This document shows positions 5,503-60,089 of a stretch of DNA of 64,000 nucleotides, in pieces; position 1 is the stretch's first letter; the number at the start of each line of letters is the position of its first letter. The notes beneath the pieces are model-generated. The model saw only the letters and a program-made list of their open reading frames with translations, was not told where the DNA came from and did not search any database. Made by a program: the position numbers and the translations under genes. The stretch lies in NCBI RefSeq assembly GCF_023008165.1, contig NZ_JAKQZA010000001.1, positions 124,001 to 188,000 on the forward strand, in the 5' to 3' direction. The stretch is from Kordiimonas laminariae (lineage in GTDB: Bacteria; Pseudomonadota; Alphaproteobacteria; Sphingomonadales; Kordiimonadaceae).

Positions 5503-5607
5503 TTGTACAACTCTGTTTAGTAAATATTCACTTTTCGTCTTTAGATTTTAATTCACTATCTGTAAGATGTCTGTAGTGATTACTTATGAGTAAGTTGGGT
5601 GTTCAAT

Positions 5608-6153: not shown

Positions 6154-6167
6154 CGCACCTCAATAAA

Positions 6168-6193
6168 AAAGGCCAACCCGCAGGCTGGCCTTT
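6168..6193. terminator. Bidirectional intrinsic terminator
   Basis: AAAGGCCA / TGGCCTTT 8-bp stem, extended by CC/GG around a CGCA loop, flanked by an A tract on the left (AATAAAAAA) and T on the right (TTTCCTT). It lies between the convergent second PAS gene and astB, so it can terminate transcription from both sides. Confidence 0.85.
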
Positions 6194-6214
6194 CCTTAAG
6201 TGTTGTTCTAGCGC

Positions 6215-13396: not shown

Positions 13397-13411
13397 AATC
13401 CCAAATCCCTT

Positions 13412-14464: not shown

Positions 14465-14468
14465 ACTC

Positions 14469-15608: not shown

Positions 15609-15636
15609 TCTAGTGTCCCTTCAGTACTTTTACTTA

Positions 15637-17556: not shown

Positions 17557-17606
17557 CTCATGTCTCCCCGATCGAGCTCTATAATCCCCAAACTCCCAAC
17601 TAAGAA

Positions 17607-17628
17607 AAGCGGCGCCGAAGCACCGCTT
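17607..17628 (-). terminator. UUCG-loop intrinsic terminator after the M16 peptidase gene
   Basis: On the minus strand AAGCGGTGC-TTCG-GCGCCGCTT forms a 9-bp stem (one G-U pair) capped by a UUCG tetraloop and followed by TTCTTAG. It separates the M16 gene from the S9 gene, so the latter should have its own promoter in 17557-17606. Confidence 0.85.
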
Positions 17629-17648
17629 AATTCTTTATGCATTACCGA

Positions 17649-34568: not shown

Positions 34569-34739
34569 CTTATTCAATCGCCTTACACTTCCTCAAACCG
34601 GGCTGGGCCACACTATAGATTTCACCCGATATTTTTCTATCATTTTTCTATTTTCTGTATTTTTAAGAATTTCAATAAGATTTCCAACGGTTTGCTCACC
34701 ATGCTTCGCGCCAGAGTTACGTACAGCAAGGAAATGAGT

Positions 34740-36395
34740 ATGCAGAAAATAACAAAATACATCCCGCTAGCAGCAGCTGCCCTGCTTGGCGGCATCAGTG
34801 CGCAGGCGCAGGAACCTATCGAACCGATTATGGTAACTATCCCCGCAGCTATATTTGAAATGGGCAGTGAAGATCAGGAAACGACAAAACCCGTTCACAC
34901 AGTTAACCTGAAAACATTCAGCATGGGGATTTACGAAGTAACGGTGAAAGAATACCGGCGCTTTGTGGAAGCCACAAATTATGATGCCCCACAAAACTGC
35001 CGCCACGAGGTAGATGACTGGATGAAGCCTTTTTCAGAAGGCAGTTGGGACAGTAATTTCCCAACCCGCAGTGAATATATGCCTGTTGTATGCATTGGCT
35101 GGAAAGGCGCAAATGCTTATGCAGAATGGATTGCAAAAGAAACCGGAAAACCTTATCGCCTGCCATCAGAAGCGGAATGGGAATATGCAGCTCTTGGCGG
35201 TGCTCGCACCAAATTTCATTTTGGTGATGATCCAGACGGCACTGAAATATGCGCTTATGCAAACACATCAGATTTAGCTGGTGAAAACTTCCTCCAGCGC
35301 TCGACAAACACAAGCTATGTGAATTTCGCGGGCGGTAAATTCAACTGTGTTGACCATGAAGGTTTCACTGCCATCGTGGGCACTTATAAGCCCAATCAAT
35401 TTGGCCTCTATAATATGATCAGCAATGTGTTTGAATTTCTGGCAGATTGTTATCACCCCAACTATGAAGATGCGCCCGCAGATGGAAGCGCTCGAACAGA
35501 TGGCACATGTGAACGCCGTGTGGTGCGCGGTAACAGCTGGCACTGGAAAGCTAACCCTCTAACCCACCGCGCTGGCTTTACTGATTTTGTTGGCGGTATA
35601 GAAGGCTTCCGCCTTGCACTGGATGGCGAAGCACCTGCGAAAACGGCCGAAACTCAGCTCTTTGAAACTGAACTGGCTGCGGAACAAACCCGTGCGAAAA
35701 AACGTTATGCGGCAACACCTGCATATCCGGCAACTGTTCAAAACCTCAAACTAGACCAAAATGAAAATATGGTAACTCTCAGCTGGGATGCAGTTACTGG
35801 TGAAGGCCTGCACACTTATCGTGTTTACCGAAACTTCTTCGAAGGTGGGCGTTTCCGTTTGATTGCTGATAATCTTATGAAGCCTGTTTTCCGGGACGCA
35901 AACGCGGCACCACACATTTATGAATACCGTGTAGTTGCAGTCCAGGAAAACCGACAGGGCGACTACAGCAATTCTGTTATCACCAAAGGCGGCTGGATTC
36001 CTCTTACCAACCGCCTGGAAGCCGAGCATTTCAGTAAGGCAGAAGGCACCACCCCTGCTTATTCCCACGATGAGCACCGGCTGACAGCTGGTGTCACTGG
36101 CCGCGGCGGTATCGGCGAAAACGCTGTATTAGATTATCAAGTAGATATTCAAGAAGCTGGAACGTTCGAATTATCTCACCGTGTAGCAAGCATACGTGAC
36201 GGTAAAGGCTTTGAATTATGGCTTGATGGCAAGAAGCTAACTACCAGCAAAATACTCAACACTGGCGGGTATTGGAAATGGAAGACCCAACCGGGAGATA
36301 CAATAAGGTTGACAGCAGGTAGGCATCACCTTCAAATAAGGTCGCTTGATACTAACTGGAAACTAAACTGGATTGGTTTCGCCAAAATCAGTTAA
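34740..36395 (+). CDS. Exported SUMF1-like protein with C-terminal FN3-like and CBM6-like domains
   Basis: 551 residues from the ATG at 34740, which has AAGGA 7 bases upstream; two earlier in-frame ATGs (34701, 34734) lack proper spacing. Signal peptide MQKITKYIPLAAAALLGGIS, cleaved after AQA. The formylglycine-generating-enzyme-like domain (about 25-300) shows FEMGSEDQETTKPVHTVNLK, YRLPSEAEWEYAALGG, FGLYNMISNVFEFLADCYHP and GNSWHWKANPLTHRAGF. The paired copper-binding Cys of true FGE in that last stretch are absent. About 320-415 is an FN3-like domain (MVTLSWDAVTGEGLHTYRVY) and the final 130 residues a CBM6-like beta-sandwich (NRLEAEHFSKAEGTTPAY, HLQIRSLDTNWKLNW). It likely binds carbohydrate at the cell surface. 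Confidence 0.78.
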   Translation: MQKITKYIPLAAAALLGGISAQAQEPIEPIMVTIPAAIFEMGSEDQETTKPVHTVNLKTFSMGIYEVTVKEYRRFVEATNYDAPQNCRHEVDDWMKPFSEGSWDSNFPTRSEYMPVVCIGWKGANAYAEWIAKETGKPYRLPSEAEWEYAALGGARTKFHFGDDPDGTEICAYANTSDLAGENFLQRSTNTSYVNFAGGKFNCVDHEGFTAIVGTYKPNQFGLYNMISNVFEFLADCYHPNYEDAPADGSARTDGTCERRVVRGNSWHWKANPLTHRAGFTDFVGGIEGFRLALDGEAPAKTAETQLFETELAAEQTRAKKRYAATPAYPATVQNLKLDQNENMVTLSWDAVTGEGLHTYRVYRNFFEGGRFRLIADNLMKPVFRDANAAPHIYEYRVVAVQENRQGDYSNSVITKGGWIPLTNRLEAEHFSKAEGTTPAYSHDEHRLTAGVTGRGGIGENAVLDYQVDIQEAGTFELSHRVASIRDGKGFELWLDGKKLTTSKILNTGGYWKWKTQPGDTIRLTAGRHHLQIRSLDTNWKLNWIGFAKIS

Positions 36396-37358: not shown

Positions 37359-39629
37359 ATGGTGTGTTTTAAAACATCAGTAAAAAGGCTGGCCTCAGCG
37401 GCGTGCCTTATGGGACTATTATCAACATCACTCACGGCAGACAGCCACGACCAAAAACAAGAGGTAGAGCGCCCTAAAATCGGCCTTGTGCTATCTGGCG
37501 GCGGTGCTAAAGGCGCAGCGCACATCGGGGTGCTAGAGCAGCTTGAAGCTATGAATGTGCAGGTAGACTGTATCGCAGGCACCAGTTTCGGAGCCATCGT
37601 TGGCGGGTTATACGCTAGTGGTGTTTCCGTGAACGAGATGAAAAAATCCCTTCAGGATATTGATTGGGATACGGTGCTTTCAAACAGCATTCCCCGCCAA
37701 CAGCAAACCTTCCGCCGAAAGCAGGATACAGATAGTTTCCTGATCCCTTACCAGTTCGGCATAGTAGACGGCAAAGTAGTGAACCCACCTGCCTTTATCG
37801 ATAACGCTAACTTGAGCCAGGTGATAAGAGGCTTGCTGAAAAGTAGTCACGGTAATATTGATTTTGATAACCTTCCCATCCCGTTTCGCGCAGTTGCTAC
37901 TGATTTTTCGAACGGCAGTGAAGTAGTTTTAGGTGACGGTAATCTGGCAGATGCTATCGTGGCTTCTATGTCTGTCCCCAGCCTGTTCCCTGTATTTGAA
38001 TTAAACGGCAAGCTGTTGGTAGATGGCGGCATCGCTAACAACGTACCTGTATCCGTTGCCCGTAATATGTGCGCAGACCGGGTGATTGTAGTGAACCTTG
38101 CAGTCGACCCAGAAAAAGATGCACACGAAAACCGTGGCATAACTGGCGCACTTAAACAAATTTCAGCGCTTCTAACTTACCAAAATGCTCGCATCCAACT
38201 TGCTTCCATCAACGAAGAAAGCGGGGACATTATCATAACCCCCGATATGGAAGGCTTTAGCTTTACAGATTTCAAAAAAACCCTTGAAATTGCCGCTATT
38301 GGGAAGGAGGCCGCAGTACAAGTCGAGAGCAAGTTGGCCGCCTACAGTGTTGATGATACCCAGTGGACCGCTTTCGCAGAAGCACGGGAAGCAAAGACCC
38401 AGCATGCAGACCCTTACATCCGGGAAATCCAGATCACAAACGATAGCCCTCTCGTCACCGCAAAACTTGAGGCATTTCTAGGTATAACCGCTGGCGATAA
38501 ATTAGATAAAGCAAAGCTAGAAAGAGGGCTGAGCCAGCTATACGGTCTCGGGTATTTTGACCGCATAAAATACACTATTGATGAACACGAACTTGGCGGC
38601 AGCAAGTTGGCGATTGATGCCAAGTACCGGGAATGGGCTAAAGATACACTCCGCTTTGGTGTTGCTTTTGATGATAACTTTAACGGAGAAAGCTCCGTCC
38701 AGCTTAGTCTCCAACACACGCGAAATGGCCTAAATGGTCTTGGCGGTGAATGGCGAAATGAAGTGGAAATTGGCTCTAACCAGCGCCTTCAAACCCAGCT
38801 TTACCAACCACTAGACTATAAAGAAAAACACTTCTTGCAGGCCACTGCCCGTTTCCAGCGCACGGGGGTTCCATTTCGGGATGAAGATGGCATCATCACA
38901 CTTGAACTTGGTGCTAATGTGCTTGATTTCAGTTTGTCAGCAGGCCGAAACTTTGGCCAGTGGGGCAGTTTTTCTGTTGGTGCCGCTTATAGCTTAATTG
39001 ATATTGAGCGCAGAAGCGGCCTTATTACAGATCCTCAACTACAAGCCATTATTGATAATGATATTGTAGATGATCTTGGCGCTTTTGCTAATTTCCGCAT
39101 TGATACACTTGATAGCCTTACCTTCCCTCGCAAAGGTATGATCCTGAATGCCAATTATATTGTTGATGTTGGTCAGGGGGATGCCTTTTCTAACGGTTCA
39201 CTGCAGCTTGAATTCGCTGCGGCAAAAAGCTGGGGCCGAAATACACTCGCATTCTTCTCTGAATTCGGAACGAATTTCTCAGATAACGAAGAATTCCAAA
39301 ATGTGTTCCAGTTAGGTGGCTTTAGAAGCCTTTCCGGTTTTTCAAGAAATGAACTGGCTGGTTCACACATCACACAGGCGGGTCTCACCTTCTATCGACG
39401 TATGGGCGACGATAGCAAAGTATTGTTTGATTCCCCGCTTTATCTGGGTTTCAGCTCAGAAATTGGAAACGTATGGGCGGATCTGGATGATTTCAGCGCC
39501 GATGACCTGATACTGGGCGGAACTTTATTCGCAGGTGTTGAAAGTCCGATCGGCCCTATCTTTATAGGTGGCAGCCACAATAATGCGGGCCGGACATCCT
39601 TCTTCCTGTTTATCGGAGGAATTTTCTAA
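37359..39629 (+). CDS. PlpD-like patatin phospholipase autotransporter (type Vd)
   Basis: 756 residues. After a signal region (about 1-27) the patatin domain shows the oxyanion loop LVLSGGGAKGAAHIG, the nucleophile Ser76 in AGTSFGAIVGGLYASG and the catalytic Asp in LVDGGIANNVPV. Residues about 345-420 are a POTRA-like domain (IREIQITNDSPLVTAKLEAF; LERGLSQLYGLGYFDRIKYT), and from about 430 a 16-strand barrel of the BamA/Omp85 type runs to the final IGGIF. This three-part order is that of type Vd autotransporters such as PlpD, secreted or surface-displayed lipases of the phospholipase A1 kind. The ATG at 37359 has only a weak ribosome site. It ends at a strong terminator. Confidence 0.88.
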   Translation: MVCFKTSVKRLASAACLMGLLSTSLTADSHDQKQEVERPKIGLVLSGGGAKGAAHIGVLEQLEAMNVQVDCIAGTSFGAIVGGLYASGVSVNEMKKSLQDIDWDTVLSNSIPRQQQTFRRKQDTDSFLIPYQFGIVDGKVVNPPAFIDNANLSQVIRGLLKSSHGNIDFDNLPIPFRAVATDFSNGSEVVLGDGNLADAIVASMSVPSLFPVFELNGKLLVDGGIANNVPVSVARNMCADRVIVVNLAVDPEKDAHENRGITGALKQISALLTYQNARIQLASINEESGDIIITPDMEGFSFTDFKKTLEIAAIGKEAAVQVESKLAAYSVDDTQWTAFAEAREAKTQHADPYIREIQITNDSPLVTAKLEAFLGITAGDKLDKAKLERGLSQLYGLGYFDRIKYTIDEHELGGSKLAIDAKYREWAKDTLRFGVAFDDNFNGESSVQLSLQHTRNGLNGLGGEWRNEVEIGSNQRLQTQLYQPLDYKEKHFLQATARFQRTGVPFRDEDGIITLELGANVLDFSLSAGRNFGQWGSFSVGAAYSLIDIERRSGLITDPQLQAIIDNDIVDDLGAFANFRIDTLDSLTFPRKGMILNANYIVDVGQGDAFSNGSLQLEFAAAKSWGRNTLAFFSEFGTNFSDNEEFQNVFQLGGFRSLSGFSRNELAGSHITQAGLTFYRRMGDDSKVLFDSPLYLGFSSEIGNVWADLDDFSADDLILGGTLFAGVESPIGPIFIGGSHNNAGRTSFFLFIGGIF

Positions 39630-48637: not shown

Positions 48638-48758
48638 AAACGCCGTTTTCTTCCCTATTGAGCCTAATTCAGAATATATTCATCATGGCTCTTTTATTTG
48701 CCAATTGCGGTCAGTATAAAGGGCACATTCTTAAAGCCAATAATAATTGGGATATTTT

Positions 48759-49322
48759 ATGCAAGCGGAAGCACTTTCACTACCCGGAGTTTACCTGTTC
48801 TCACCTAAAAAGTTTGGTGATGATCGGGGCTTTTTCTCCGAAACTTTTAATGCACGTGCATTCGAAGAAGTTGTTCCAGGCGTAAATTTTGTACAGGATA
48901 ACCAGTCCCTGTCCCGTGATGTTGGCGTTATTCGCGGTATGCACTTTCAAACACCTCCTTATACACAGGGAAAGCTTGTACGTGTAACTCGCGGTAAAGT
49001 GCTGGATGTTATCGTTGACATCCGTAAAGGCTCCCCAACATACGGCAAACATATCGGGGTTGAACTATCTGCTGAGAATTGGCAACAGCTCTGGGTTCCC
49101 AAAGGCTTTGCCCACGGCTTTTGTACGCTCGAACCAGATACCGAATTCTGCTATAAAGTAGACGATTATTACGAGCCCGAGCATGATGCAGGCATTGCGT
49201 TTGATGATCCCGATCTAGGCATTGAATGGCCAATAGATATTACTGCTGCAATCCTTTCAGATAAGGATCGTGCTCAGCCAAAATTAAAAGAGATTGAAAA
49301 CCCGTTCGTTTTCGAAGGGTAG
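48759..49322 (+). CDS. rfbC: dTDP-4-dehydrorhamnose 3,5-epimerase
   Basis: 187 residues from the ATG at 48759; a TTG four codons upstream is not needed. RmlC cupin features: DDRGFFSETFNARAFEE, VIRGMHFQTPPYTQGKLVRV with the catalytic His, and FAHGFCTLEPDTEFCYKVDD YY. It epimerises dTDP-4-keto-6-deoxyglucose. First gene of the rfbCBDA run; 15 bases to rfbB. The 121 bases between it and the divergent GT4 gene hold both promoters. Confidence 0.95.
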   Translation: MQAEALSLPGVYLFSPKKFGDDRGFFSETFNARAFEEVVPGVNFVQDNQSLSRDVGVIRGMHFQTPPYTQGKLVRVTRGKVLDVIVDIRKGSPTYGKHIGVELSAENWQQLWVPKGFAHGFCTLEPDTEFCYKVDDYYEPEHDAGIAFDDPDLGIEWPIDITAAILSDKDRAQPKLKEIENPFVFEG

Positions 49323-49337
49323 TTTAGGAATTTATCG

Positions 49338-50387
49338 ATGAAAATTATTGTAACAGGCGGTGCAGGATTTATTGGCTCAGCGGTATGCCGTTATTTGGTA
49401 AAAGACCTCGGCTACACAGCAATCAACGTTGATAAGCTAACCTATGCAGGCAACCTTGAAACCCTCAAGGAAATTGAAGACAGCGAACTCTATCATTTTG
49501 AAAAAGTAGATATCTGCGACAGAAATGCCCTTGATGAAGTATTTGCGAAGCACCAACCTGATGCGGTAATGCACCTAGCGGCTGAAAGCCACGTAGACCG
49601 CTCTATCACTGGTGCTGGTGAATTTATTCAAACCAATATTGTTGGTACATTCAATATGCTTGAGGCTGCCCGTGCTTATTGGCTTGGCCTTCGGGAGGTT
49701 GACCAAAAGGCATTCCGTTTCCTTCATGTATCAACTGACGAAGTGTACGGCAGCCTTGGTGACGAAGGTTTATTCCATGAGACAACGCCTTATGATCCAA
49801 GTTCACCTTATTCTGCATCCAAAGCATCAGCAGACCATCTGGCAAATGCCTGGCACGAGACATACGGTTTCCCTGTTGTAATTTCTAATTGCTCAAATAA
49901 CTACGGCCCATACCACTTCCCGGAAAAGCTTATTCCGCTGGTAATCCTGAATGCTCTTGATGGCCACCCGCTTCCGATTTATGGCGATGGCTCGAATGTT
50001 CGCGACTGGCTCTACGTAGAAGATCACGCGAAGGCGCTTTTCACCATTATGAGCAAAGGCCGTTTGGGCGAGAAATATAACGTGGGCGGCAGAAACGAAC
50101 GAACTAATCTTGAAGTGGTAACACGTATCTGCGAAATCCTTGATGAAGTACGCCCGAAAAACAAGCCATACGCTGAACAGATTACTTATGTAACCGACCG
50201 ACCGGGTCATGATGCACGCTACGCCATTGATGCAACAAAGCTTGAAGACGAACTTGGATGGAAAGCTGAAGAGAACTTCGATACTGGCATCAAAAAAACA
50301 ATCCAGTGGTATCTGGATAATGAATGGTGGTGGGCACCGCTTCGCAGCCATGCGACCGAACGCAAAGGCGTACTGAAGGAAGATTAA
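49338..50387 (+). CDS. rfbB: dTDP-glucose 4,6-dehydratase
   Basis: 349 residues, extended short-chain dehydrogenase fold: Rossmann [16 protein letters not shown]-like start (here [16 protein letters not shown]), [12 protein letters not shown], the active-site region [15 protein letters not shown] and [20 protein letters not shown] with Tyr-x-x-x-Lys. It makes dTDP-4-keto-6-deoxyglucose, shared by rhamnose synthesis and by amino-sugar routes that use a DegT-type aminotransferase such as the one at 60 kb. One base separates it from rfbD. Confidence 0.96.
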
Positions 50388-50388
50388 T

Positions 50389-51288
50389 ATGACCCGCATT
50401 TTTGTTGCAGGTTCATCTGGCCAAGTTGCGCTTTCTCTCAAGGAAGCGGCAGAGCATAAAGCCATCACGCTTGCCACCGCGGGTCGGCCGGATTTTGATC
50501 TTACAGACCCTGAAGGTATGCGTGCTGCCATAACGGCGTTTCACCCAACAGCGATTGTTAACGCGGCTGCCTACACTGCTGTAGATGCCGCGGAAGATAA
50601 CGAAGAAACTGCAAACGCAGTAAATATAGAAGGCCCGAGAGCTCTTGCAGCTATTGCAGCAAGCCTTGAGGTGCCCTTCATTCACATCTCCACCGACTAT
50701 GTTTTTGATGGAGATAAAGATGATGCTTATGTGGAAACTGATCCCGTGTCCCCGCAAGGGGCTTATGGGCGCAGCAAGCTTGCTGGTGAGATAGCAGCAA
50801 CTGCATCAAACCCGAATAGCATCATCCTGCGCACAGCCTGGGTTTACAGCCCTTTTGGAAATAACTTCCTAAAAACAATGCTAAAGCTTGCTCAGAACCG
50901 AGATGAACTGAACATAGTTGCAGATCAACGCGGCAATCCAACCTATGCTATTGATATCGCTGAAACCATTTTGGAAATAGTACAACAGTTAGACGCTGGA
51001 AAACCACTTGCTAATGTCGCGGGTGTTTATCATCTGGCTGGTTCGGGAGATACGAATTGGCATGGCTTTGCCTCCTTCATTTTTGAAGAAGGCCGCAAAT
51101 ACGGACACCCCGTACCAAAGGCAAATGCAATACCGACAGCGGAATATCCAACACCTGCCAAACGCCCAATGAACAGTCGGCTTAATTGTGATAAAGTTCA
51201 GGAAGCGTTCAGTATTACAATGCCAGATTGGTACGAAAGCACCGCAAAATGCGTAAAACGCCTTTTCGGTGAAGGTCAGCTAGGCTAA
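50389..51288 (+). CDS. rfbD: dTDP-4-dehydrorhamnose reductase
   Basis: 299 residues with the RmlD pattern: FVAGSSGQVALSLKEAAEHK, VNAAAYTAVDAAEDNEETAN, FIHISTDYVFDGDKDDAYVE and GAYGRSKLAGEIAATASN, with the Tyr-x-x-x-Lys dyad. It reduces dTDP-4-keto-L-rhamnose to dTDP-L-rhamnose. It lies one base after rfbB and 42 bases before rfbA. Confidence 0.95.
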   Translation: MTRIFVAGSSGQVALSLKEAAEHKAITLATAGRPDFDLTDPEGMRAAITAFHPTAIVNAAAYTAVDAAEDNEETANAVNIEGPRALAAIAASLEVPFIHISTDYVFDGDKDDAYVETDPVSPQGAYGRSKLAGEIAATASNPNSIILRTAWVYSPFGNNFLKTMLKLAQNRDELNIVADQRGNPTYAIDIAETILEIVQQLDAGKPLANVAGVYHLAGSGDTNWHGFASFIFEEGRKYGHPVPKANAIPTAEYPTPAKRPMNSRLNCDKVQEAFSITMPDWYESTAKCVKRLFGEGQLG

Positions 51289-51330
51289 AGAAGTATTTAA
51301 ACAAGTTATTTTAGAATTCGGGGAAACACT

Positions 51331-52209
51331 ATGAAGGGTATCATTCTGGCTGGCGGCTTAGGCACGCGCCTCTACCCTCTTACAAAATCAATCAGCAAGC
51401 AGCTGTTGCCAATTTACGACAAGCCGATGATTTATTATCCGCTCACCACACTTATGCTGGCGGGTATCCGGGAAATCTTGATCATCAGCACACCACAGCA
51501 CCTGCCACTCTACCGTGACCTTCTTGGCGATGGTAGCCAGTGGGGCATCAGGCTTGATTATGTCGTGCAGGAAACACCAGCAGGCCTTGCCCAAGCTTTC
51601 CTTCTTGGCGAACAGTTTATAGACGGCCAACCTTGTGCGCTCGCGCTCGGCGACAATATTTTCTATGCCGCAGGTTTCACTCAGTATCTCCAGCAGGCTG
51701 GCAGTGTTGAAAAAGGTGCGTACGTGTTTGCCTATCCTGTTGGCAACCCGGAAGCCTTCGGTATCGTGGAAATGGACGAAAATGGCCGCGCATTGAGCGT
51801 GGAAGAAAAACCGACTAATCCGAAAAGCAACCTCGCGGTAACCGGCCTTTATTTTTATGATAAAGATGTGGTTGATATCGCGAAAGAAGTTAAACCTTCT
51901 GCACGCGGTGAACTGGAAATTACCAGCGTAAATGATGCTTACCTTCAGCGCGGTGATTTAAACGTTATCAAACTTCTGCGTGGTACCGCATGGCTGGATA
52001 CCGGTACTGTTGATAGCCTGTTGCAGGCCAGCCAGTTTGTGCAAACAATTGAAGCGCGCCAAAGCCTGAAGATTGCATGCCCGGAAGAAGTAGCTTGGCG
52101 CTCAGGCTTTATTGATGACAGCAAACTTGAAGAAGAAGCTGCAAAATATAAAAACAGCTACGGTGAATACCTTTCCAACCTGTTGAAATTTGAAAGCCGC
52201 AGCCAGTAG
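51331..52209 (+). CDS. rfbA: Glucose-1-phosphate thymidylyltransferase
   Basis: 292 residues: [20 protein letters not shown] nucleotide loop, [28 protein letters not shown] and the conserved [18 protein letters not shown]. It makes dTDP-glucose from glucose-1-phosphate and dTTP, starting the dTDP-rhamnose route. The order C-B-D-A and the 15-base gap to the large glycosyltransferase tie nucleotide-sugar supply to its use. Confidence 0.96.
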
Positions 52210-52224
52210 GTTGCGGCAAACGCT

Positions 52225-54492
52225 ATGTTTGGGCTTGGAAAAAAAGCGAAAAAATACTGTAGCGCGGATGATGCCAGAGGCTTCCTGCTCATCTTTCTGG
52301 GCCGTGAACCCAAGCATGAAAGCGATATTAGCCGTAGAGAAGGTAAGCCTGTTGCCAGCGTTCTAAGCGGCCTTATCAATTCAAAAGAGTTTATCTATGG
52401 GGTCCTACAGCCCTTGTCACTCGGCAAACCGCTCGCCTGGATGCCCTATTCTGCTGAACAGCAAAAGCTGGTTATTCAGACTGTAAAAAAGCATCTCGGC
52501 ACCAAAATAAAATCGGTTGAACACCGTACAAAGGCATTGCTAGCCATAAGCAACAACTGGCGTTTCTTACAGATTATAGATAATGGCCCCTCAGGCTATT
52601 CAGCAGCAGATTTTGCCACACGCATTGAAAGTTATTTTGGTCACCAACCTGCTCCGGTTCTTGGCGTGATTGAAGATATTAGAGGCAATGAATGTTTTGG
52701 CTATGCCCTGGATTTGAGCCGTAAAGGGGAAAGCCTGCGACTGGATTTCTATTTGAACGGTACATATGTTGGCACTACTGAGGCTGACGGTCTTCGCCGT
52801 GATGTTGAGGAGCAGCACCCGGGCTTTAAACACACAGGTTTTACCTTCACGGTAACCATACCTGGGCATCTAGCCAAGCTGGATCATTTAATTCTTGCGG
52901 TCTTCGATCACGCAACCGGTGCCCCAATATGTCCTGCTCGCGCTATCCCTAACATGGGTGCCTCATATCCGCTTAACATTGTTCGCTTTACAAATGCGCT
53001 TGAGCATGCAGCACAACAGAGCCCTGAAAACATCCAGCAGCAGATCGAGTGTATTCAAAATGCATTACCAGACTTGAAAAACTATGCTGCGATCCCAGTT
53101 GCGGCTTATTCACAATCAAAGCATTTATTGCAGGAAACCACCGCTAGGCCACAAAAGGTTATAGCGTTAAAACTTTATGCTGGCGAAGGCCTTTTAGCAA
53201 CCGATAGCGCTGAATATTTCTTCCAAGAAGCCGCCTTAAAAAATCCGAATGCTGTTATCTTTTTTTCTGACCACGAATGGATGGAAACAGACGGCACCAT
53301 AACCCCTATTTTTAAGCACAGCTTTGACTATGAAGAACTCCTGACAAGAGCAGCTTATGCCAACGCATTTGCCGTAAAAGAAGGTGTTTTCCCTGAAGGT
53401 ATGAAGCCTCATGATATGTGGCTCAAAGCCTATGAACAATTAGGCGAACAGGCGTTTTCCCATGTTCCCCATATGCTCTTTGAAGCAAAACAAACATGTA
53501 TCGCTTCAGTAAATGAATACAAACGAGCTGTTGAAGCACATTTCGCGAGAACAACTCCAGACGCCAAACTTGAACTGGAAGCCAATGATCCATATGCAGG
53601 CGTCGCAGCAGAAACTGGCTATATAAAATGGCCATTGCCTGCGAAAAACCCATTAATGGCGATTATCATTCCAATGCGAGACGCGCTTGATCTCACGCGG
53701 AACTGTATCAAAAGCCTCCGAAACACTTTGCAGCATTCCTACGACACCGAAATCATCATTGTGGACAACGGCAGTGTAGAAGAAGACACAAAAGACTGGC
53801 TAAGACGAGTGGATGCAATGGACGGTATTCGTGTGCTTTTACACGATGCTCCATTCAACTGGGCCGAGCTCAACAATCTTGCCGTACAGGCTACTGAAGC
53901 TGAATATCTGTTGTTTTTGAATAACGATACAATCGCACTGGATTACGGCTGGGATCATATATTACGTGGATATCTGAACCGCCCGACTGTTGGCGCTGTT
54001 GGTGCGCGCCTACTGTTTGAAGATGGTACCCTGCAATATGGCGGGTACATTCTCAACCCAGATAACATTGTACTGAAAGAAGCTTACGGCGAAAGCCCGA
54101 ACCAAAGCTATAATCAGCGGTCACAGTTACCGCACCAAACATCAGCGCTCATTGGAGCCTTTCTGGCCTGTCACCGAAATACCTATGAAAAAGCTGGTGG
54201 ATTTGATGCAGAAAACCTGCCTGTCGCCTTTAATGATGTGGATTTCAGTCTGGCTGTCTCCAAAATTGGACTAAAAAATATTTATGTGCCAGCCATTACC
54301 TTTCAACACTTAGAATCTAAAAGTCGTGGCTATGATGCTCAAGATAAAGTAAAGCAAGTTCGCGAAAAAGCTGAGCGGGAGAAAATACGCCAAAAATGGC
54401 GTGATTTGTTAGTTGCAGATAGGTACTATTCTCCCGTACTACTAGCGCAAGAGCCAACTCATGCTTCTATATTGAAGCGTGATTGCCGCTAA
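52225..54492 (+). CDS. Multidomain GT2 glycosyltransferase with DUF4214-like N-terminal domain
   Basis: 755 residues, no membrane segment. Residues 13-60 read FLLIFLGREPKHESDISRRE followed by LINSKEFIYGV, the pattern of DUF4214-like helical modules. About 145-240 is a beta-sandwich (VLGVIEDIRGNECFGYALDL). About 313-425 looks like a diverged GT2 half-domain with VIFFSDHEWMETDGTITPIF, lacking a clear catalytic acidic pair. Residues 475-735 are a full GT2 domain: LMAIIIPMRDALDLTRNCIK, IIIVDNGSVEED, LLFLNNDTIALDYG and VAFNDVDFSLAVSKIG. It follows rfbA by 15 bases and is likely a rhamnosyltransferase or a partner in polymer assembly; substrate specificity is inferred from context. Confidence 0.82.
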   Translation: MFGLGKKAKKYCSADDARGFLLIFLGREPKHESDISRREGKPVASVLSGLINSKEFIYGVLQPLSLGKPLAWMPYSAEQQKLVIQTVKKHLGTKIKSVEHRTKALLAISNNWRFLQIIDNGPSGYSAADFATRIESYFGHQPAPVLGVIEDIRGNECFGYALDLSRKGESLRLDFYLNGTYVGTTEADGLRRDVEEQHPGFKHTGFTFTVTIPGHLAKLDHLILAVFDHATGAPICPARAIPNMGASYPLNIVRFTNALEHAAQQSPENIQQQIECIQNALPDLKNYAAIPVAAYSQSKHLLQETTARPQKVIALKLYAGEGLLATDSAEYFFQEAALKNPNAVIFFSDHEWMETDGTITPIFKHSFDYEELLTRAAYANAFAVKEGVFPEGMKPHDMWLKAYEQLGEQAFSHVPHMLFEAKQTCIASVNEYKRAVEAHFARTTPDAKLELEANDPYAGVAAETGYIKWPLPAKNPLMAIIIPMRDALDLTRNCIKSLRNTLQHSYDTEIIIVDNGSVEEDTKDWLRRVDAMDGIRVLLHDAPFNWAELNNLAVQATEAEYLLFLNNDTIALDYGWDHILRGYLNRPTVGAVGARLLFEDGTLQYGGYILNPDNIVLKEAYGESPNQSYNQRSQLPHQTSALIGAFLACHRNTYEKAGGFDAENLPVAFNDVDFSLAVSKIGLKNIYVPAITFQHLESKSRGYDAQDKVKQVREKAEREKIRQKWRDLLVADRYYSPVLLAQEPTHASILKRDCR

Positions 54493-54534: not shown

Positions 54535-57468
54535 ATGAAGAAGATTATTCAATCTATCGCCACTCCTTTTGCACAGTCTAAGGGTACAAAAGAAGTAATC
54601 CTTCAATCTGGGCTGTTTAATAGCGATTGGTATGCTGCCAATTATCCCGACGTACTTCAAAAAGATATTGATCTTCTTGATCACTACATTTCAGTGGGTG
54701 ATGCAGAAGGATATAAACCCAACCGTTATTTCGACCCCAACTGGTACAGAGAACATGCTCCCGGGGCTCGTAAGCCTAGTGTTAATGCACTTGCTCAATA
54801 TATTACGTTTGGCCATAAACGCGGCAAAAACCCATCAAATCAGTTTTCCTCTGAGCTTTATTATGAAGCATACCCAGAGGCACAGAATTATGATGGTTCT
54901 GCATTGGAACATTTTTTAAAACTAGGCCAACATCAGGGGAACTTAACTTTCCCTGTCACATTACAGTTCCGTAAAGACGGCAAAAAACTTTTTAAAGATA
55001 TGCTGCTCATAAAAGATAGTGGTCTGTTTATGGAAGACTGGTATCGTAATCATTATTCCAATTTGTGGGATTACGAGGGGAATTTGCTTTTCCATTTCGT
55101 TTCATACGGACACAAATATCAACTTCAGCCAAATCCCTATTTCAACACCCACTGGTATAGGGTGTTCAATAAAGAATACATGGTAGAAGATAATCCACTT
55201 CTTCATTATATCACTGCGCCTAAAAACAAGTTTGACCCTGCTCCTGATTTTAGCAACACCGCTTACTTTGCCTGCCACAAAGAGTTAAACCCAGAAACAG
55301 ATGACCCACTGTTACATTATCTTACTATCGGTATAAAATCTGGTGAGACACAACCGAAGACCACGAAAAGGAAAGTGAGAGCAAAAGCTAAACTCCCTGT
55401 TCCCGATCGCCTTCGAGGCATGGTTGATTACCCTAAAACAGATCTGTCGCCAGAAACGATGGATTTCAAAAGCAGCAAGCTGAATATTCATTGGATTATT
55501 CCAGATTTCGCGGCTGGTGGTGGTGGTCATATGACCATTTTCCGCATGACAAATTTTCTTGAAAAGCAAGGTCACAAACAAACTATCTGGATAAATGAAC
55601 CAAATCAGCATTCATCTGAAGAACAGGCTGCGGATGATATTTTAAAGCATTTCCAGCAGTTTACCGGAAAAGTAAAGTTTTTGGACAAACGCTTTAAGAA
55701 AGCTAAAGGTGATGTCATTATCGCCACAGACTGCTGGACAGTATGGCCTGCGCTTTCGGCCAGTAATTTCAAACGCCGTTTTTACTTCGTACAGGATTTT
55801 GAACCTAGCTTCCATGCTATGGGGAGCGACTATTTGGCCGCTGAACAAACCTATTATGAAGATTTAGACTGCATTTGTGCTAGTCCATGGCTTGCAAAAC
55901 TCATGGAAGAAAAATACGGACGCTGGGCACGGCCCTTCTGGCTAGCCGCGGACACCAAGCTGTATCACCCAGTGTCTAAAAAGAAACCTAACAAGCGCCC
56001 TCGTATTGCGTTTTATGCGCGGCACTTCACAGCACGTCGTGCTGTAGAACTTGGTATGCTAGCTTTGGAGGAACTTGCCAAACGTGGCCTTGATTTCGAA
56101 GTTGATTTCTTCGGCGCTGAACTGGAATTTCAGGTAGCGCCCTTCCGGTTTAAAGATCATGGGGTTGCCTCGCCGGAAGAGCTAGCAGCTTTATTCCAAA
56201 AAGCCGATATCGGCGTCGTTTTTTCAGCAACTAATTATTCACTCGTACCTCAGGAAATGATGGCGTGTGGCCTGCCTATTGTAGAACTAAAAGGGGAAAG
56301 CACAGAGTGTATTTTCCCCAAAGAAACAGTAAGTCTAGCCGAGCCTCATCCAAGCAAAATTGCTGATGCTATGGAGTGTCTGATCAAAGATGAGAAAAAG
56401 CGAAGAAAACAATCGTTAGCTGCCCGGGATTGGGTTCAGGGCTTTAGCTGGCAAGCGTCCGCTGAACTTGTGGAACAGGCTATCCTCGACCGATTGAACG
56501 AAATTGGTAATGATATCGCACCAAAAAGCGAGCGCTCCAAAAAAGGTAAAAACAAAGCATCTGTCATTATTCCAACCTTAAATGCTGGTCCTATTCTAGA
56601 CAGCGTTTTAAAGGCTGTGACAGAGCAAAACACTCCCTGGCCATACGAAGTACTCGTCATTGACAGTGGCTCAACAGATGGCACGCTGGAAGCCATCGCC
56701 AAATACCCATCCGTTAAGCTCCATCAAATCGAAAAGAAGGATTTCAATCATGGGGGTACACGTAATTTAGGGGCAGAATTAACCGATGGCGAATTTATCG
56801 CCTTTCTCACTCATGATGCTTTGCCCGCAAACGAAGACTGGCTCTACAATCTGGTGTCCGCTATTGAAATGTACCCTGATGCGGCAGGAGCCTTCGGAAA
56901 ACATCTACCATATCCAGATGCTTCGGAATTCACTAAACGCGATCTCAACACGCATTTTCAAAATATGCTTGAGGCCCCTCTGTGCGTTAGTAAAACCACT
57001 AACAAAAAGCGCTTCAAAAATGATGAGGATGTGCAGTGGCACCAATTTCTGCATTTCTATAGCGATAATAACAGCTGCATGCGCCGTAAGGTTTGGGAAA
57101 AACTTCCTTACCGCGAAACTAAGTTTGGTGAAGATCAAATATGGGCTGATGATATTATTAAGGCCGGTTATAGCAAAGTGTATGCTGTTCGCTCTGTCGT
57201 GTTCCATAGCCACGACTTTACCCCAGAAGAAAATCAAGAGCGAAATATGGTGGAAGCTGCCTTCTTCAAACACTTCTTTGGTTATAAGCTGATCAGTAAT
57301 GAAGAAGAGCTTCAAAATACTCTAAGCGATTTAAACAAAGCTGACCGCGAATGGGGTAAACAGCAAGGGCTCGAAGCGGATATCATTGAAGACCGAATGC
57401 AGCAAAACGAAGCAAGGTTGAGAGGCTATCTGGAAGGATGGCAGGCAGATACCTCTACTATGTTTTAA
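54535..57468 (+). CDS. Large bifunctional glycosyltransferase: six N-terminal repeats, WsaF-like GT4, GT2
   Basis: 977 residues, cytoplasmic. Residues about 22-280 contain six diverged copies of an F-[ND]-x-x-W/Y-Y ... L-x-H-Y/F-x-x-x-G unit (for example LFNSDWYAANYPDVL, YFDPNWYREHAPGA, LYYEAYPEAQNYDGSALEHF, LFMEDWYRNHYSNL, YFNTHWYRVFNKEY, TAYFACHKELNPETDDPLLH). Residues about 315-640 are a GT4-like domain resembling the rhamnosyltransferase WsaF (LNIHWIIPDFAAGGGGHMTI; RRFYFVQDFEPSFHAMGSDY; VVFSATNYSLVPQEMMACGL). Residues 675-930 form a GT2 domain (KASVIIPTLNAGPILDSVLK; DSGSTDGTLEAIAKY; AFLTHDALPANEDWLYNLVS). It lies 42 bases after the 755-aa gene, downstream of rfbCBDA, so it may add rhamnose and a second sugar alternately. 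It ends at a strong terminator. Confidence 0.85.
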   Translation: MKKIIQSIATPFAQSKGTKEVILQSGLFNSDWYAANYPDVLQKDIDLLDHYISVGDAEGYKPNRYFDPNWYREHAPGARKPSVNALAQYITFGHKRGKNPSNQFSSELYYEAYPEAQNYDGSALEHFLKLGQHQGNLTFPVTLQFRKDGKKLFKDMLLIKDSGLFMEDWYRNHYSNLWDYEGNLLFHFVSYGHKYQLQPNPYFNTHWYRVFNKEYMVEDNPLLHYITAPKNKFDPAPDFSNTAYFACHKELNPETDDPLLHYLTIGIKSGETQPKTTKRKVRAKAKLPVPDRLRGMVDYPKTDLSPETMDFKSSKLNIHWIIPDFAAGGGGHMTIFRMTNFLEKQGHKQTIWINEPNQHSSEEQAADDILKHFQQFTGKVKFLDKRFKKAKGDVIIATDCWTVWPALSASNFKRRFYFVQDFEPSFHAMGSDYLAAEQTYYEDLDCICASPWLAKLMEEKYGRWARPFWLAADTKLYHPVSKKKPNKRPRIAFYARHFTARRAVELGMLALEELAKRGLDFEVDFFGAELEFQVAPFRFKDHGVASPEELAALFQKADIGVVFSATNYSLVPQEMMACGLPIVELKGESTECIFPKETVSLAEPHPSKIADAMECLIKDEKKRRKQSLAARDWVQGFSWQASAELVEQAILDRLNEIGNDIAPKSERSKKGKNKASVIIPTLNAGPILDSVLKAVTEQNTPWPYEVLVIDSGSTDGTLEAIAKYPSVKLHQIEKKDFNHGGTRNLGAELTDGEFIAFLTHDALPANEDWLYNLVSAIEMYPDAAGAFGKHLPYPDASEFTKRDLNTHFQNMLEAPLCVSKTTNKKRFKNDEDVQWHQFLHFYSDNNSCMRRKVWEKLPYRETKFGEDQIWADDIIKAGYSKVYAVRSVVFHSHDFTPEENQERNMVEAAFFKHFFGYKLISNEEELQNTLSDLNKADREWGKQQGLEADIIEDRMQQNEARLRGYLEGWQADTSTMF

Positions 57469-57472
57469 CGGA

Positions 57473-57498
57473 AAAAGGGGCTTATCACTGCCCCTTTT
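57473..57498. terminator. Bidirectional intrinsic terminator
   Basis: AAAAGGGGC / GCCCCTTTT 9-bp stem with an 8-base loop immediately after the 977-aa gene and overlapping the last bases of the minus-strand sulfotransferase-like gene, so it can serve both. Confidence 0.85.
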
Positions 57499-58165
57499 GT
57501 AACCCGGTATGTTTTAATCTTCTGCCTACGATTTCAGTTACTTTTTCCAAATCAAATGGTTCTCCGAGGAAATCAAAGAGTGGCTGGAAAGCTGCTGGAT
57601 TATTTTTGGTTTCATCATATGAGAGCTGGAGTGTACGCTCAGGATACTTTTGCTGATATGCAGCATACATACTGTCACAACTTTCAACAATTCCTCGGAC
57701 CAGTTCCTGGTCCATAGAAGCCCACCATCCAGATTTAGAAACATCTTGCCAATTTCGCACATTAAAAACGAATTTACATGGCGCTAAGTTTTCATGGATA
57801 AAATTCAGATAGTCTTCAAACTGTTCGGGGCCGGCTTCATGAAAACGAATCTCTTTAAAGCCGATTACTCTAGCATCTGAAGGTGGCTGAATAATCTCTT
57901 CAACAAAAATATCTATCAGCTTTTTAGAAAACCGTTCCGGTACAACTTTATCGGCTCCATACCAGGGCTCTTCCATACCGTGGTCTTTATTACCATGATC
58001 ATAACGAGTGGAATGGGCAGCATTAGCAGCCCTATAAAGAGAATATAGTACATTCATATTCTCTCCGCGAATATGGTATCCTGGGATCGTTTGTAGAACA
58101 GTTTGCAAAACCGTAGAGCCGGAACGGCCATATGTTACAATGCAAACAAAAGGTAGATTTTCCAT
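57485..58165 (-). CDS. Sulfotransferase-family protein
   Basis: 226 residues from the ATG at 58165; a GTG at 58216 inside the upstream gene is possible but unlikely. The N-terminus FVCIVTYGRSGSTVLQTVLQ is the 5'-phosphosulfate-binding loop of PAPS-dependent sulfotransferases, and FKFVFNVRNWQDVSKSGWW-like sequence (here CKFVFNVRNWQDVSKSGWW) matches the 3'-phosphate-binding region. Members sulfate carbohydrates or other alcohols. It is the last gene of the minus-strand run with the GT41-like and DegT-like genes, so the target is probably the glycan made there. Confidence 0.75.
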   Translation of the reverse strand: MENLPFVCIVTYGRSGSTVLQTVLQTIPGYHIRGENMNVLYSLYRAANAAHSTRYDHGNKDHGMEEPWYGADKVVPERFSKKLIDIFVEEIIQPPSDARVIGFKEIRFHEAGPEQFEDYLNFIHENLAPCKFVFNVRNWQDVSKSGWWASMDQELVRGIVESCDSMYAAYQQKYPERTLQLSYDETKNNPAAFQPLFDFLGEPFDLEKVTEIVGRRLKHTGLQKGQ

Positions 58166-58199
58166 AGTAAACCTAACTGATATCCTGCGTATCAGGCAG

Positions 58200-60089
58200 T
58201 TATGCTGCCTTTTCACCCAGTTTTGTTACAACCTCTTGAGTAGAAAAAGACTTTTGGTCTGAAGCTTGAAGTTCTTCATGATATTCATACGCAAAACGTA
58301 CCGCCCGACCGAATGACGGGCATGTGCCGTCGGGGCTTACCATCATTACTTCATCAAAATCAAAGTTAGCCAGTGCTTTACTAATTTCTACACGTTCTTC
58401 ATCATTTTCGATCAAACGCAATACAGCCCTGATATAATCCCCTTCATCATCGGTGGACAACCAATTTGGCTGAGGCATGTGAGAAACCATCTCAGAATCG
58501 TTCATCGCATGCATCTCGTCCCCCTTCATGTTCACGATAGGTAGTCCGAGCGGACACGCATCAAGAATACCATTGGTCGCACCAAAAGGTATGGAACTCA
58601 GGAAAATATCACACTTGGATAGCTCGCTGATATACTTGTTATAGTTGGTGCGCGGCAACACTGTTGCTGTGAACATACTCTCGACCCGACGCTTGACCGC
58701 TTGGTAGAGAGATCCTGCGCCATTTGGGAAAAAGACAAACTCTACCGGCTTTGTAGAGAGCATTTCGATCTTCTGACAGATTGTCAGTAACCTTGGTGTA
58801 ATTTTCCGTGACCAAGCCGGCACTGCAATTTTCAGGCTTTTAGCATTTTCTTTAATGAATGCCTTTGGCTTTTGAGCATCATGCCGATGTTCATAGCGCG
58901 CTATTTCATGCCAATAAATGATTTTATCGGCGATAGTGTCTTCACTCCCGACCAAACCTTCAACGAGGAGCGAATAATCAATATACTTCGAATGTGTTGT
59001 TGCCGGGTGGCCGTATGTCATAACCTGAACAGGTGCAAGCCTTAGGTTGGTTCCATAAATACTCAACATGCGCATACCCACGCTCGGGTAATAAATTACA
59101 TCTGGCTGATATGCCTTTACCTTATCAAAAAATGCTGCAGGGTTTGCGTGATCCAATGTTTCGGTGTCGATTTCATCAAACATATACTCAAGCTTCGGAT
59201 CGCACTTACCTTCAGCAGACATATAGATAATCTTAAAATGATCTCTCAGAGAACGGATCGCAGGGCCATAACAGCGATGCATTGCGTGAATGGCCGTATA
59301 AAGTTCTGCCATTACAATGAGTGTTGGCTTCTCTTTGATAGGCCTAGGCTTGTTGGAAAAATCTACATCAGTCAGCCCTTTCCTTAAAAGCCAATCCCTC
59401 ACAATCGAATTAACGGTTTTTTTGATATCATGCTTGTGAGGAGCATCTGCGTAGCTACACCCCATGTAAACGGGGCCCATGGCTTGAGCCACAGCATCCG
59501 TAGCTTTTAAATCACTCCATAGATGACTGTTGGAGAAAAGTTCGGAACGAATTTCTTCTGCTTTAGGGTTGTAGACAAGCTGCTCTGTCAAGAAGGCCCG
59601 TGCAATTGGCCACGCAATATCCTTATTTTGTTTCAACAACAGTTTCAGAAGCGATTCATTCATAGAATTGATTGATATTACACATAAGAGTTTCGGAACA
59701 TTTGCTCTGGTGATGCTCAGAGAACCATTCTCTTTCTTAGTGGCCAACATCTCAATAAAATGGCTTGTGCCCCTATAGCCGCTAATCTCAAATGCTTGGC
59801 TAACTACCCGCTTATTACGCGCTAATATTTCAAACATACGGCGACGCATAACGAAATTAGGGGATGTGATCATCTGCGTGAATGCAGATGCAAAAATCGT
59901 TGCTTCCTGTTCACTTAATGGCGTTAGCGTCGTCAGGTTTTCACCAAAGGTTGTTTGGCTTCGTTCGAGGCGATTAAAGATACTGACTAAAACACCAACA
60001 GTATCGTCGAACTTTTCTTCATTCACCAGCGACCGATACTCATGAATAGACGTGATCAGTTTCTCTTGTTTCTTCTTATCGTCTGTCAT
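58200..60089 (-). CDS. GT41/HMW1C-like glycosyltransferase
   Basis: 629 residues, close to the length of HMW1C-type protein N-glycosyltransferases. The first ~200 residues are helical (AARMIFEILARNKRVVSQAFEI-like series, with MRRRMFEILARNKRVVSQAF) as in the all-helical domain of that group. The GT-B part carries VIYYPSVGMRMLSIYGTNLR (about 335), MTYGHPATTHSKYIDYSLLV (about 360), CDIFLSSIPFGATNGILDAC and GLPIVNMKGDEMHA, matching the conserved series of HMW1C proteins. These enzymes add glucose or other hexoses to Asn or Ser/Thr of adhesins or other proteins in the cytoplasm. It overlaps the DegT gene (ATGA) and precedes the sulfotransferase-like gene. Family assignment is by motif pattern; activity is inferred. 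Confidence 0.72.
   Translation of the reverse strand: MTDDKKKQEKLITSIHEYRSLVNEEKFDDTVGVLVSIFNRLERSQTTFGENLTTLTPLSEQEATIFASAFTQMITSPNFVMRRRMFEILARNKRVVSQAFEISGYRGTSHFIEMLATKKENGSLSITRANVPKLLCVISINSMNESLLKLLLKQNKDIAWPIARAFLTEQLVYNPKAEEIRSELFSNSHLWSDLKATDAVAQAMGPVYMGCSYADAPHKHDIKKTVNSIVRDWLLRKGLTDVDFSNKPRPIKEKPTLIVMAELYTAIHAMHRCYGPAIRSLRDHFKIIYMSAEGKCDPKLEYMFDEIDTETLDHANPAAFFDKVKAYQPDVIYYPSVGMRMLSIYGTNLRLAPVQVMTYGHPATTHSKYIDYSLLVEGLVGSEDTIADKIIYWHEIARYEHRHDAQKPKAFIKENAKSLKIAVPAWSRKITPRLLTICQKIEMLSTKPVEFVFFPNGAGSLYQAVKRRVESMFTATVLPRTNYNKYISELSKCDIFLSSIPFGATNGILDACPLGLPIVNMKGDEMHAMNDSEMVSHMPQPNWLSTDDEGDYIRAVLRLIENDEERVEISKALANFDFDEVMMVSPDGTCPSFGRAVRFAYEYHEELQASDQKSFSTQEVVTKLGEKAA

Follow-up and report, generated by a model that had tools for sequence, protein, structure and literature searches.

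In the 64,000-nucleotide stretch of the Kordiimonas laminariae genome analyzed here (positions 124,001 to 188,000 of contig NZ_JAKQZA010000001.1; the window), one open reading frame (ORF) encodes a 977-amino-acid (aa) protein in which two blocks of three 38-residue repeats precede two glycosyltransferase (GT) domains, GT4 and GT2. We tentatively favor a reading in which this protein is a cytoplasmic, bifunctional capsule transferase whose repeat module holds the growing chain at both active sites, such that elongation is processive. The enzyme would extend a sulfated, deoxyhexose-containing polysaccharide, exported through an ATP-binding cassette (ABC) transporter-dependent, Kps-type capsule system. 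GT4 would add one sugar, probably from a deoxythymidine diphosphate (dTDP)-6-deoxysugar, and GT2 another, while the two helical repeat blocks would keep the nascent chain beside the two active sites; a chain held there would therefore be elongated processively. The same module, which also occurs at the ends of secreted repeats-in-toxin (RTX) proteins, would attach these to the exported surface polymer. Directly supported are the repeat layout, the conserved GT motifs, a confidently predicted fold that has no PDB match, the rml and kps surroundings in the window's own genome and the occurrence of the module in two compartments; what we infer here are the donor sugars, the sulfation of the polymer, the polymerase role and the chain binding.

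A predicted helical repeat module ahead of two transferase domains

The repetition is evident within the protein itself: residues 1-320 give a self-alignment score of 161, against a maximum of 53 among 60 shuffles. Our own 37-position repeat profile detects six copies in a 3 + 3 layout (Table 1), with a 24-residue linker that is helical in the structural model. The data scanned with this profile had also served to broaden it; its best E-value across 335 shuffled family sequences was 9.2. The initial annotation, made from the letters of the DNA, had described six N-terminal repeats followed by GT4 and GT2 domains, and the ORF, the repeat profile and Pfam bear this out; the repeat length it gave, about 42 residues, is corrected to a period of 38. 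In a wider set the consensus reads LFDAAWYLAQYPDVAAAGINPLEHYLTFGWREGRDPS. Certain positions of the repeat are conserved as aromatic residues, Gly, Pro or His.

The repeat is present in 58 of 67 family proteins examined. Successive copies are separated by exactly one residue (period 38) in 197 of 281 cases and by 17-28 residues in 57, and it is this split that defines the blocks. Triads are arranged as 3+3 in 19 of the 58 repeat-bearing proteins, 3+3+3 in two and 3+3+3+3 in three, and dyads as 2+2 in eight, 2+2+2 in three, 2+2+2+2 in five and a single 2 in four; the other 14 show further patterns, two runs of six among them. One relative (L064), whose gene is split over two overlapping open frames with an unknown letter (5594-8103 of its locus), was counted as repeat-less in this tally and as repeat-bearing in the tally of rml neighbors below. 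Among 26 proteins from the window's own family, Kordiimonadaceae, 21 have six copies, one has nine, three have twelve, and in one four were detected. Among relatives, copy number shifts mostly by whole blocks (6, 9, 12; or, in dyads, 4, 6, 8, 10, 12), which would suit a length gauge in which the number of copies sets chain length. Such block variation is, however, usual in tandem domains that have no gauge role, two triads are kept in those 21 proteins despite their other divergence, and secreted RTX proteins bear the same module; we regard a gauge as improbable. Among the roles first suggested for the repeats, scaffolding or polymer binding is plausible and has some indirect support, and length counting finds no support beyond copy-number variation.

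A ColabFold model of the whole chain (29-row alignment) has a mean predicted local distance difference test score (pLDDT) of 90.1 and a predicted template-modeling score (pTM) of 0.69, with mostly two helices per repeat; residues 19-290 alone (25 rows) are predicted at pLDDT 94.1 and pTM 0.88. Structure prediction, proposed initially as a check on the repeats, thus returns an N-terminus that in the model is an ordered helical repeat. The linker that joins the module to GT4 includes a low-confidence stretch, which could be taken to mean that the module is an inert spacer, merely positioning or stabilizing the GT domains. The conserved repeat positions listed above, and the occurrence of the repeat in very different proteins, secreted ones included, make this the least credible of the alternatives, and we give it very little weight.

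Database searches returned no counterpart of the module among known repeat families. On the 977-aa protein, Pfam finds nothing credible over the repeats ('Triabin' scores 0.039, below its cut-off); across 23 triads it finds no family common to them, and no tetratricopeptide repeat (TPR) family at E-values up to 10. None of the 25 best NCBIfam families overlaps the repeats. Searched with the N-terminal model, the PDB gave no Foldseek match at E <= 0.001 (best 7.5), and a second structural comparison gave no chain with Z >= 2 (20 chains); the 23-triad profile matched no PDB sequence at E <= 10. The absence of a match for this model is no proof of a new fold. The whole chain, by Foldseek, matches MshA, WsaF, chondroitin polymerase and TarP, that is, through its GT domains. 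In a viral structure library (BFVD) the N-terminal model has one match below 0.001, to a glycosyltransferase of the giant virus Fadolivirus (2.4e-4); weaker matches are to other giant-virus proteins, including those of Hyperionvirus, and several are glycosyltransferases.

Identities considered and set aside were TPR (no match in Pfam, and a period of 38 where that of TPRs is 34 residues), the S-layer homology (SLH) or CWB2 repeat (no Pfam match, and no PDB fold match by Foldseek) and other catalogued domains. An origin from phages found no support either, as none of 50,697 phage records matched. No description of the repeat was found in open-access PMC text, searched by the repeat's own letters and by topic. 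As far as searches of Pfam, NCBIfam, the PDB and open-access text show, the repeat has not been described. Multidomain capsule polymerases with helical N-termini are already known; the part that seems new is the repeat.

Over the remainder of the chain, WsaF_N, WsaF_C, Glyco_trans_1_4, Glycos_transf_1 and Glycos_transf_2 all exceed their Pfam cut-offs, with E-values of 3.3e-22 for GT2 (PF00535), 9.5e-9 for WsaF_C, 6.6e-8 for Glyco_trans_1_4 and 6.5e-7 for WsaF_N; PF21374 and PF22772 (WsaF_N / WsaF_C) score 30.0 and 35.6 bits against a cut-off of 27. In GT4, three WsaF residues on the pyrophosphate side, Y247, R249 and R254, align to Y494, R496 and R501, and E333 aligns to E574; none of the four varies among the 29 aligned sequences. 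In GT2, Asp761, Gly-Glu-Asp 865-867 and His-Ser-His 891-893 are present in all 29, and D710 and D715 are also conserved. Judged by these residues, both sites look functional: the loss of donor-site residues, which the initial annotation had raised as grounds for doubt, is not what we find, although two thymidine contacts of WsaF, K302 and Y308, are not kept. That one enzyme builds a repeating unit, as was first proposed, is a reasonable reading of this architecture.

The repeat on transferases and on secreted proteins

To a triad profile, at least 35 of 385 alphaproteobacterial genomes match (E <= 1e-3), as do at least 49 of 398 genomes across Pseudomonadota (E <= 1e-5), three of them from the window's own family; the window's genome is among the matches. 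Both counts are lower bounds, as up to 11 candidates per genome were scored. In the regions around nearly all alphaproteobacterial matches, 85 proteins from 30 genomes carry two or more repeats. Two or more RTX motifs occur in 42 of these, with ten such carriers in one genome (G231) and eight in another (G326). Within the 42, the module lies at most 19 residues from the N-terminus in 14, at most 17 from the C-terminus in 24, and at neither end in four. Pfam tallies took in 78 of the 85 proteins (38 + 40), leaving out seven longer than 1450 aa. An RTX repeat was found in 35 of the 38 scanned RTX-motif carriers, whose cargo includes subtilase, serralysin, beta-lactamase family and other domains, each seen once or twice. 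The 40 carriers with fewer than two RTX motifs are headed by Glyco_trans_1_4 (7), Glycos_transf_2 (5), Glycos_transf_1 (5) and RgpF (4); WbsX, GT61, GT92, methyltransferase and some extracellular domains are rarer, and many non-RTX carriers have no Pfam match (5/10 in one scanned subset, 3/10 in another). Overall, the enzymes fused to the repeat comprise GT2, GT4, RgpF, WbsX, GT92, GT61, methyltransferase and sulfotransferase.

Plasmids also carry the repeat, with matches in 116 of 72,556 records. Among the 60 matches listed, 51 are annotated: 18 as glycosyltransferases, 15 as glycoside-hydrolase-99-like proteins, which we take to be of the WbsX type, four as methyltransferases, one as a sulfotransferase, one as a lipopolysaccharide biosynthesis protein, four as extracellular and eight as hypothetical. 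One Rhodospirillum rubrum plasmid (L245, 1-10481) groups type I secretion system (T1SS) genes and rfbC with genes for a glycosyltransferase and for an RTX protein that has a repeat triad at its N-terminus.

Unrelated cargo and a terminal position on RTX proteins are as expected of an attachment module. Since the module occurs both on surface-polysaccharide enzymes and on secreted proteins with unrelated cargo, a polysaccharide ligand is suggested, as the simplest candidate for something that the module could meet on either side of the membrane. The glucan-binding repeats of glucansucrases and glucan-binding proteins lead the same double life. A function as a type I secretion signal was rejected, the module being N-terminal in 14 of the 42 RTX-motif proteins and borne by transferases too. 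In its most general form, the proposal would be that the repeat has a new fold, binds polysaccharide and has so far escaped description. Deployed in dyads, triads or longer runs, it would act both inside the envelope, where capsule and O-antigen transferases would use it to hold the chain being made, and outside, where it would dock type-I-secreted enzymes to the exported polymer; so broad a claim we find doubtful.

The main rival to chain holding is homotypic docking, in which the repeats of different proteins stack, joining pathway enzymes in the cytoplasm and RTX proteins outside; we take it seriously without favoring it. In six fetched loci, repeats face each other across a gene boundary, at the C-terminus of the upstream protein and the N-terminus of the downstream one (2 + 1 or 2 + 2 copies), with the genes -24 to +10 bases apart. 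The six comprise five gene pairs: one E. coli methyltransferase-GT pair found in two strains (L238, L249), and one pair each from an E. coli plasmid (L246, similar to L238/L249), Enterobacter (L240), G699 (L250) and G723 (L251). In E. coli CU532-9, for example, two repeats close a methyltransferase, and the product of the gene that follows within a few bases opens with one. The L249 pair (12515-17667) and the other facing loci look as if one module were divided between two proteins. Docking would accommodate these arrangements, as well as the fused methyltransferase-repeat-GT4-RgpF form that exists elsewhere (L179). Helical repeats, moreover, frequently bind proteins. The helical domain of CgT is reported to be required for CgT oligomerization (PMC5063993), which also speaks for docking. 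However, gene fission alone could produce facing repeats, and 12 of 18 neighboring same-strand pairs in which both proteins carry repeats do not face each other. No partner is visible in the protein's own locus, with no other repeat-bearing ORF in the window or the 40 kb beyond, and the many RTX-motif carriers of G231 and G326 look more like the anchoring of proteins to a common polymer. Separately, a 400-aa protein on E. coli plasmid pLR-28_1 (L239, 9032-10234), coiled-coil-like by eye and bearing only a C-terminal repeat dyad, adjoins capsule-type transferases.

In all six enterobacterial loci read with annotation, a hand-chosen set of five plasmid loci and one chromosomal locus, the repeat protein follows capsule or O-antigen ABC-export genes, and in two of the six the stretch includes rfb (rml) genes; a seventh locus carried no annotation. 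Of six other plasmid loci, three encode repeat-bearing transferases with no ABC-export gene in the stretch (see below), and three have extracellular carriers, which in one case adjoin T1SS genes and rfbC. A 2.3-kb query from the chromosomal E. coli repeat locus has matches in 50 of 5426 complete genomes, and in 37 of these the match spans 80% of the query or more. A repeat match in Leclercia MN423365.1, at 13514-13741, falls within a 3B-like kps cluster that is placed at 7593-31994 and listed with rmlBCAD (PMC10433991). According to the excerpted text of the same source, every group 3 cluster of its earlier analysis except K11 contains rmlBDAC, along with a conserved three-GT block proposed to build a linker (PMC10433991). 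Because of this block, linker building is another possible job for the repeat-bearing enzymes.

Genomic context and the weight of the evidence

The neighbors of the gene for the 977-aa protein are listed in Table 1. The initial annotation had placed it downstream of rfbCBDA; it does lie downstream of rmlCBDA, but the gene for a 755-aa GT2 protein intervenes. The names rmlB and rmlA, like that of ManC further upstream, are our presumption from sequence. The order up to the gene is ManC, a 319-aa protein and a GT4 (all on the minus strand), then rmlC, rmlB, rmlD, rmlA and the 755-aa GT2; after it come the convergent sulfotransferase, the NGT-like transferase, a DegT aminotransferase, a 666-aa GT2 and a DUF6212 protein. 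Just past the window are HlyD and PrtD-type T1SS genes and a gene for a 784-aa RTX protein. On the same contig, 22-45 kb downstream, lie genes for a Wza/KpsD-type export protein, KpsE (1.6e-80), an ABC ATPase, KpsM (7e-30), KpsF, KpsS (1.9e-83) and CysN, with a Capsule_synth gene (KpsC-type, PF05159) about 44 kb downstream. KpsF exceeds its curated cut-off, and KpsE, KpsM and KpsS all fall below theirs; the ATPase at the KpsT position (256 aa) is named by position and Walker motif, and CysD, also in this region, is a presumptive name. From these kps and sulfate-activation genes we infer a sulfated, Kps-exported polysaccharide.

Table 1. Features of the 977-aa protein and its neighborhood, in window coordinates
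Feature	Position	Strand	Details
rmlC, rmlB, rmlD, rmlA (dTDP-L-rhamnose precursor genes)	48747..52209	+	ORFs; rmlC and rmlD over NCBIfam cut-offs
755-aa GT2 protein, directly upstream of the 977-aa ORF	52225..54492	+	Pfam; syntenic in relatives
Two-domain glycosyltransferase with N-terminal repeat module	54535..57468	+	977 aa; ATG start; stop codon included
Helix before first repeat block	54565..54609	+	Residues 11-25; model secondary structure (residues 1-14 low-confidence)
Repeat 1, block 1	54613..54723	+	Residues 27-63; own repeat profile
Repeat 2, block 1	54727..54837	+	Residues 65-101; own repeat profile
Repeat 3, block 1	54841..54951	+	Residues 103-139; own repeat profile
Linker helix separating the two blocks	54979..55020	+	Residues 149-162; model
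Repeat 4, block 2	55024..55134	+	Residues 164-200; own repeat profile
Repeat 5, block 2	55138..55245	+	Residues 202-237; own repeat profile
Repeat 6, block 2	55246..55356	+	Residues 238-274; own repeat profile
GT4 (WsaF-like) domain	55483..56505	+	Residues 317-657; Y494, R496, R501, E574; Pfam, limits from model
GT2 domain	56557..57363	+	Residues 675-943; DSGSTD 710-715, THD 759-761, GED 865-867, HSH 891-893; Pfam, limits from model
Sulfotransferase, convergent neighbor	57485..58216	-	Pfam Sulfotransfer_3; synteny
NGT/HMW1C-like glycosyltransferase	58200..60089	-	NCBIfam NF049992, 2e-76, below curated cut-off

Elsewhere in the window, a patatin domain is fused to POTRA and Omp85-type domains (37359-39629), and an FGE-sulfatase domain is fused to CBM6 (34446-36395) in a gene that overlaps and diverges from one with a Trans_reg_C domain.

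The NGT/HMW1C-like transferase shares its locus with the T1SS genes and the 784-aa RTX protein (L098, 2486-8319), and together with the T1SS set it may glycosylate the RTX protein. The 977-aa protein could itself serve such glycosylation instead of capsule synthesis, as the presence of all three in one locus would allow. T1SS genes lie near 11 of 22 family loci, and kps genes near none of them within the same flanks. We nevertheless consider this unlikely, since kps and sulfate-activation genes are on the same contig in the window's genome, T1SS genes lie near only one of 33 repeat-bearing loci outside the family (and near none of eight repeat-less relatives), and the stretches of the six enterobacterial loci hold no annotated T1SS. 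These tallies cover fetched flanks of at most 10 kb, some ending at contig ends, with rml genes counted at 100 bits or more; the 22 loci were assigned to the family by titles and by matching places in the family genome search.

The window is placed in Kordiimonadaceae by named relatives, and a relative of the 977-aa protein is found in 27 of 29 genomes of this family, the window's included (best E from 0 to 5e-140), with a partial match in G022 and G007 and a match in several pieces in G001, G011, G012, G019 and G025. No relative was found in 30 genomes from elsewhere in the order, whose better matches span one GT domain only. rmlC exceeds its cut-off in 28 of the 29 family genomes and in ten of the other 30. 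Eilatimonas (G019) has the gene and rmlD without rmlC, and G026 has rmlC and rmlD without the gene. The Eilatimonas milleporae locus (L048) holds the relative with rmlA-, rmlB- and rmlD-like genes and no rmlC over cut-off, so its sugar may not be rhamnose. The twelve-repeat relatives (L024-L026, L051, L086, L087) have a different gene order, near T1SS and DUF6212 genes. Further afield, the architecture is shared by proteins of Vibrio, Microbulbifer, Thiothrix, Methylobacterium and Rhodobacterales, and by Synechococcus proteins with one or two detected repeats.

Several observations weigh against the proposal that the module holds the chain of a deoxyhexose-containing, Kps-exported capsule. The first concerns the sugar. 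In the excerpted description of WsaF, K302 and Y308 are thymidine contacts and PHPSYPPLE, with its central Tyr, is proposed as a possible rhamnose signature (PMC3898925). The contacts correspond to V544 and L550 (V/I/T/L and L across the 29 sequences), and the signature stretch reads TNYSLVPQE here and TNYSL[VIA]PQE in 29 of 29. It is closer to the stretches given there for a fucosyltransferase (TNLSLLPLE) and an altrosyltransferase (TNLSYLPVE) (PMC3898925) than to that of WsaF. A rhamnosyl-specific GT4 was therefore rejected for want of this signature, and the label 'rhamnosyl-like' first given to the domain has no specific support. A second concerns context. The co-occurrence with rml genes that had been proposed as a check holds in the family (17/22 loci) and weakens outside it, to only 11 of 33 other repeat-bearing loci and two of eight repeat-less relatives; in G001, G011 and G012 the twelve-repeat relatives are on a different contig from rmlC. 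Kps-type genes lie near none of the 22 family loci, eight of the 33 others and one of the eight repeat-less relatives; at three plasmid loci from alphaproteobacteria that encode repeat-bearing transferases, the 16-20 kb covered contain no ABC-export gene. The kps link is thus present in the window's genome, 22-45 kb away, and narrow elsewhere. A third concerns the two uses of the module. No second repeat protein was found in the window's own genome (11 of 15 candidates scored). When 69 repeat-bearing ORFs from the 12 genomes with RTX-type repeat proteins were matched to GT profiles and to four GT seeds, a recognizable transferase fused to the repeat was found in only one genome (G164), so that the secreted proteins and the enzymes may well serve different polymers. 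A pattern in which both forms are present in the same genome was accordingly set aside. Eight of these 12 genomes also hold carriers with fewer than two RTX motifs, several of which are extracellular by domain (Calx-beta, CAP, Ig-like). Finally, facing repeats fit protein docking as well or better.

If the module binds polymer, enzymes that build polysaccharides could be recognized by its sequence throughout Pseudomonadota, those of E. coli kps-type loci among them. A single small domain that folds well would then also suffice to test how chains are held, how processivity arises and how proteins are anchored at the surface. Should the module serve docking instead, it would represent an organizing principle for polysaccharide enzyme complexes.

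Comparison with known systems

Among characterized transferases, the beta-1,2-rhamnosyltransferase WsaF (PDB 2x0d-f) shares the GT4 fold (Foldseek E 1.2e-13), with counterparts of Y247, R249, R254 and E333 kept in the 977-aa protein. It differs in the signature stretch and the two thymidine contacts discussed above, and at 413 aa has no room for repeats or a GT2 domain. Bcs3, the Haemophilus influenzae type b (Hib) capsule polymerase, carries a polymer-binding SH3b domain (PMC10299916). As far as that source's excerpted text goes, it is likewise a multi-enzyme chain with a separate polymer-holding domain, a function that in the 977-aa protein is proposed; the domain is SH3b in Bcs3, and the transferases differ.

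In the E. coli group 3 (3B) kps loci the likeness is one of context, as the Leclercia repeat match falls inside the 3B-like cluster and the E. coli repeat loci are similar; the latter presumably belong to group 3, an assignment made by likeness, without an accession match. The excerpted text of the group 3 survey differs in naming GTs and a methyltransferase and no repeat module (PMC10433991).

SLH and CWB2 anchors function as triads, and SLH binds cell-wall polysaccharide, according to the excerpted text (PMC6081394). They resemble the present module as small repeats that form triads in surface proteins; they differ in that the module matches neither in Pfam nor by Foldseek in the PDB, and occurs also on cytoplasmic-type enzymes. 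Were the general proposal of a repeat active on both envelope sides true, SLH and CWB2 would have in this module a Gram-negative equivalent with an additional role in making the polymer.

The closest functional parallel is with Cps3D and Cps7D of Actinobacillus pleuropneumoniae, which in the excerpted text likewise combine N-terminal helical repeats with two transferase domains in one chain and serve an ABC-transporter-dependent capsule (PMC11666461). Their repeat is a TPR and their first transferase a glycerol-phosphate transferase, whereas the 977-aa protein has a repeat without a Pfam family, followed by GT4 and GT2. When the N-terminal TPR domain of Cps3D/Cps7D is truncated, poly(Gro3P) elongation is reported to be abolished and processive elongation hampered (PMC11666461).

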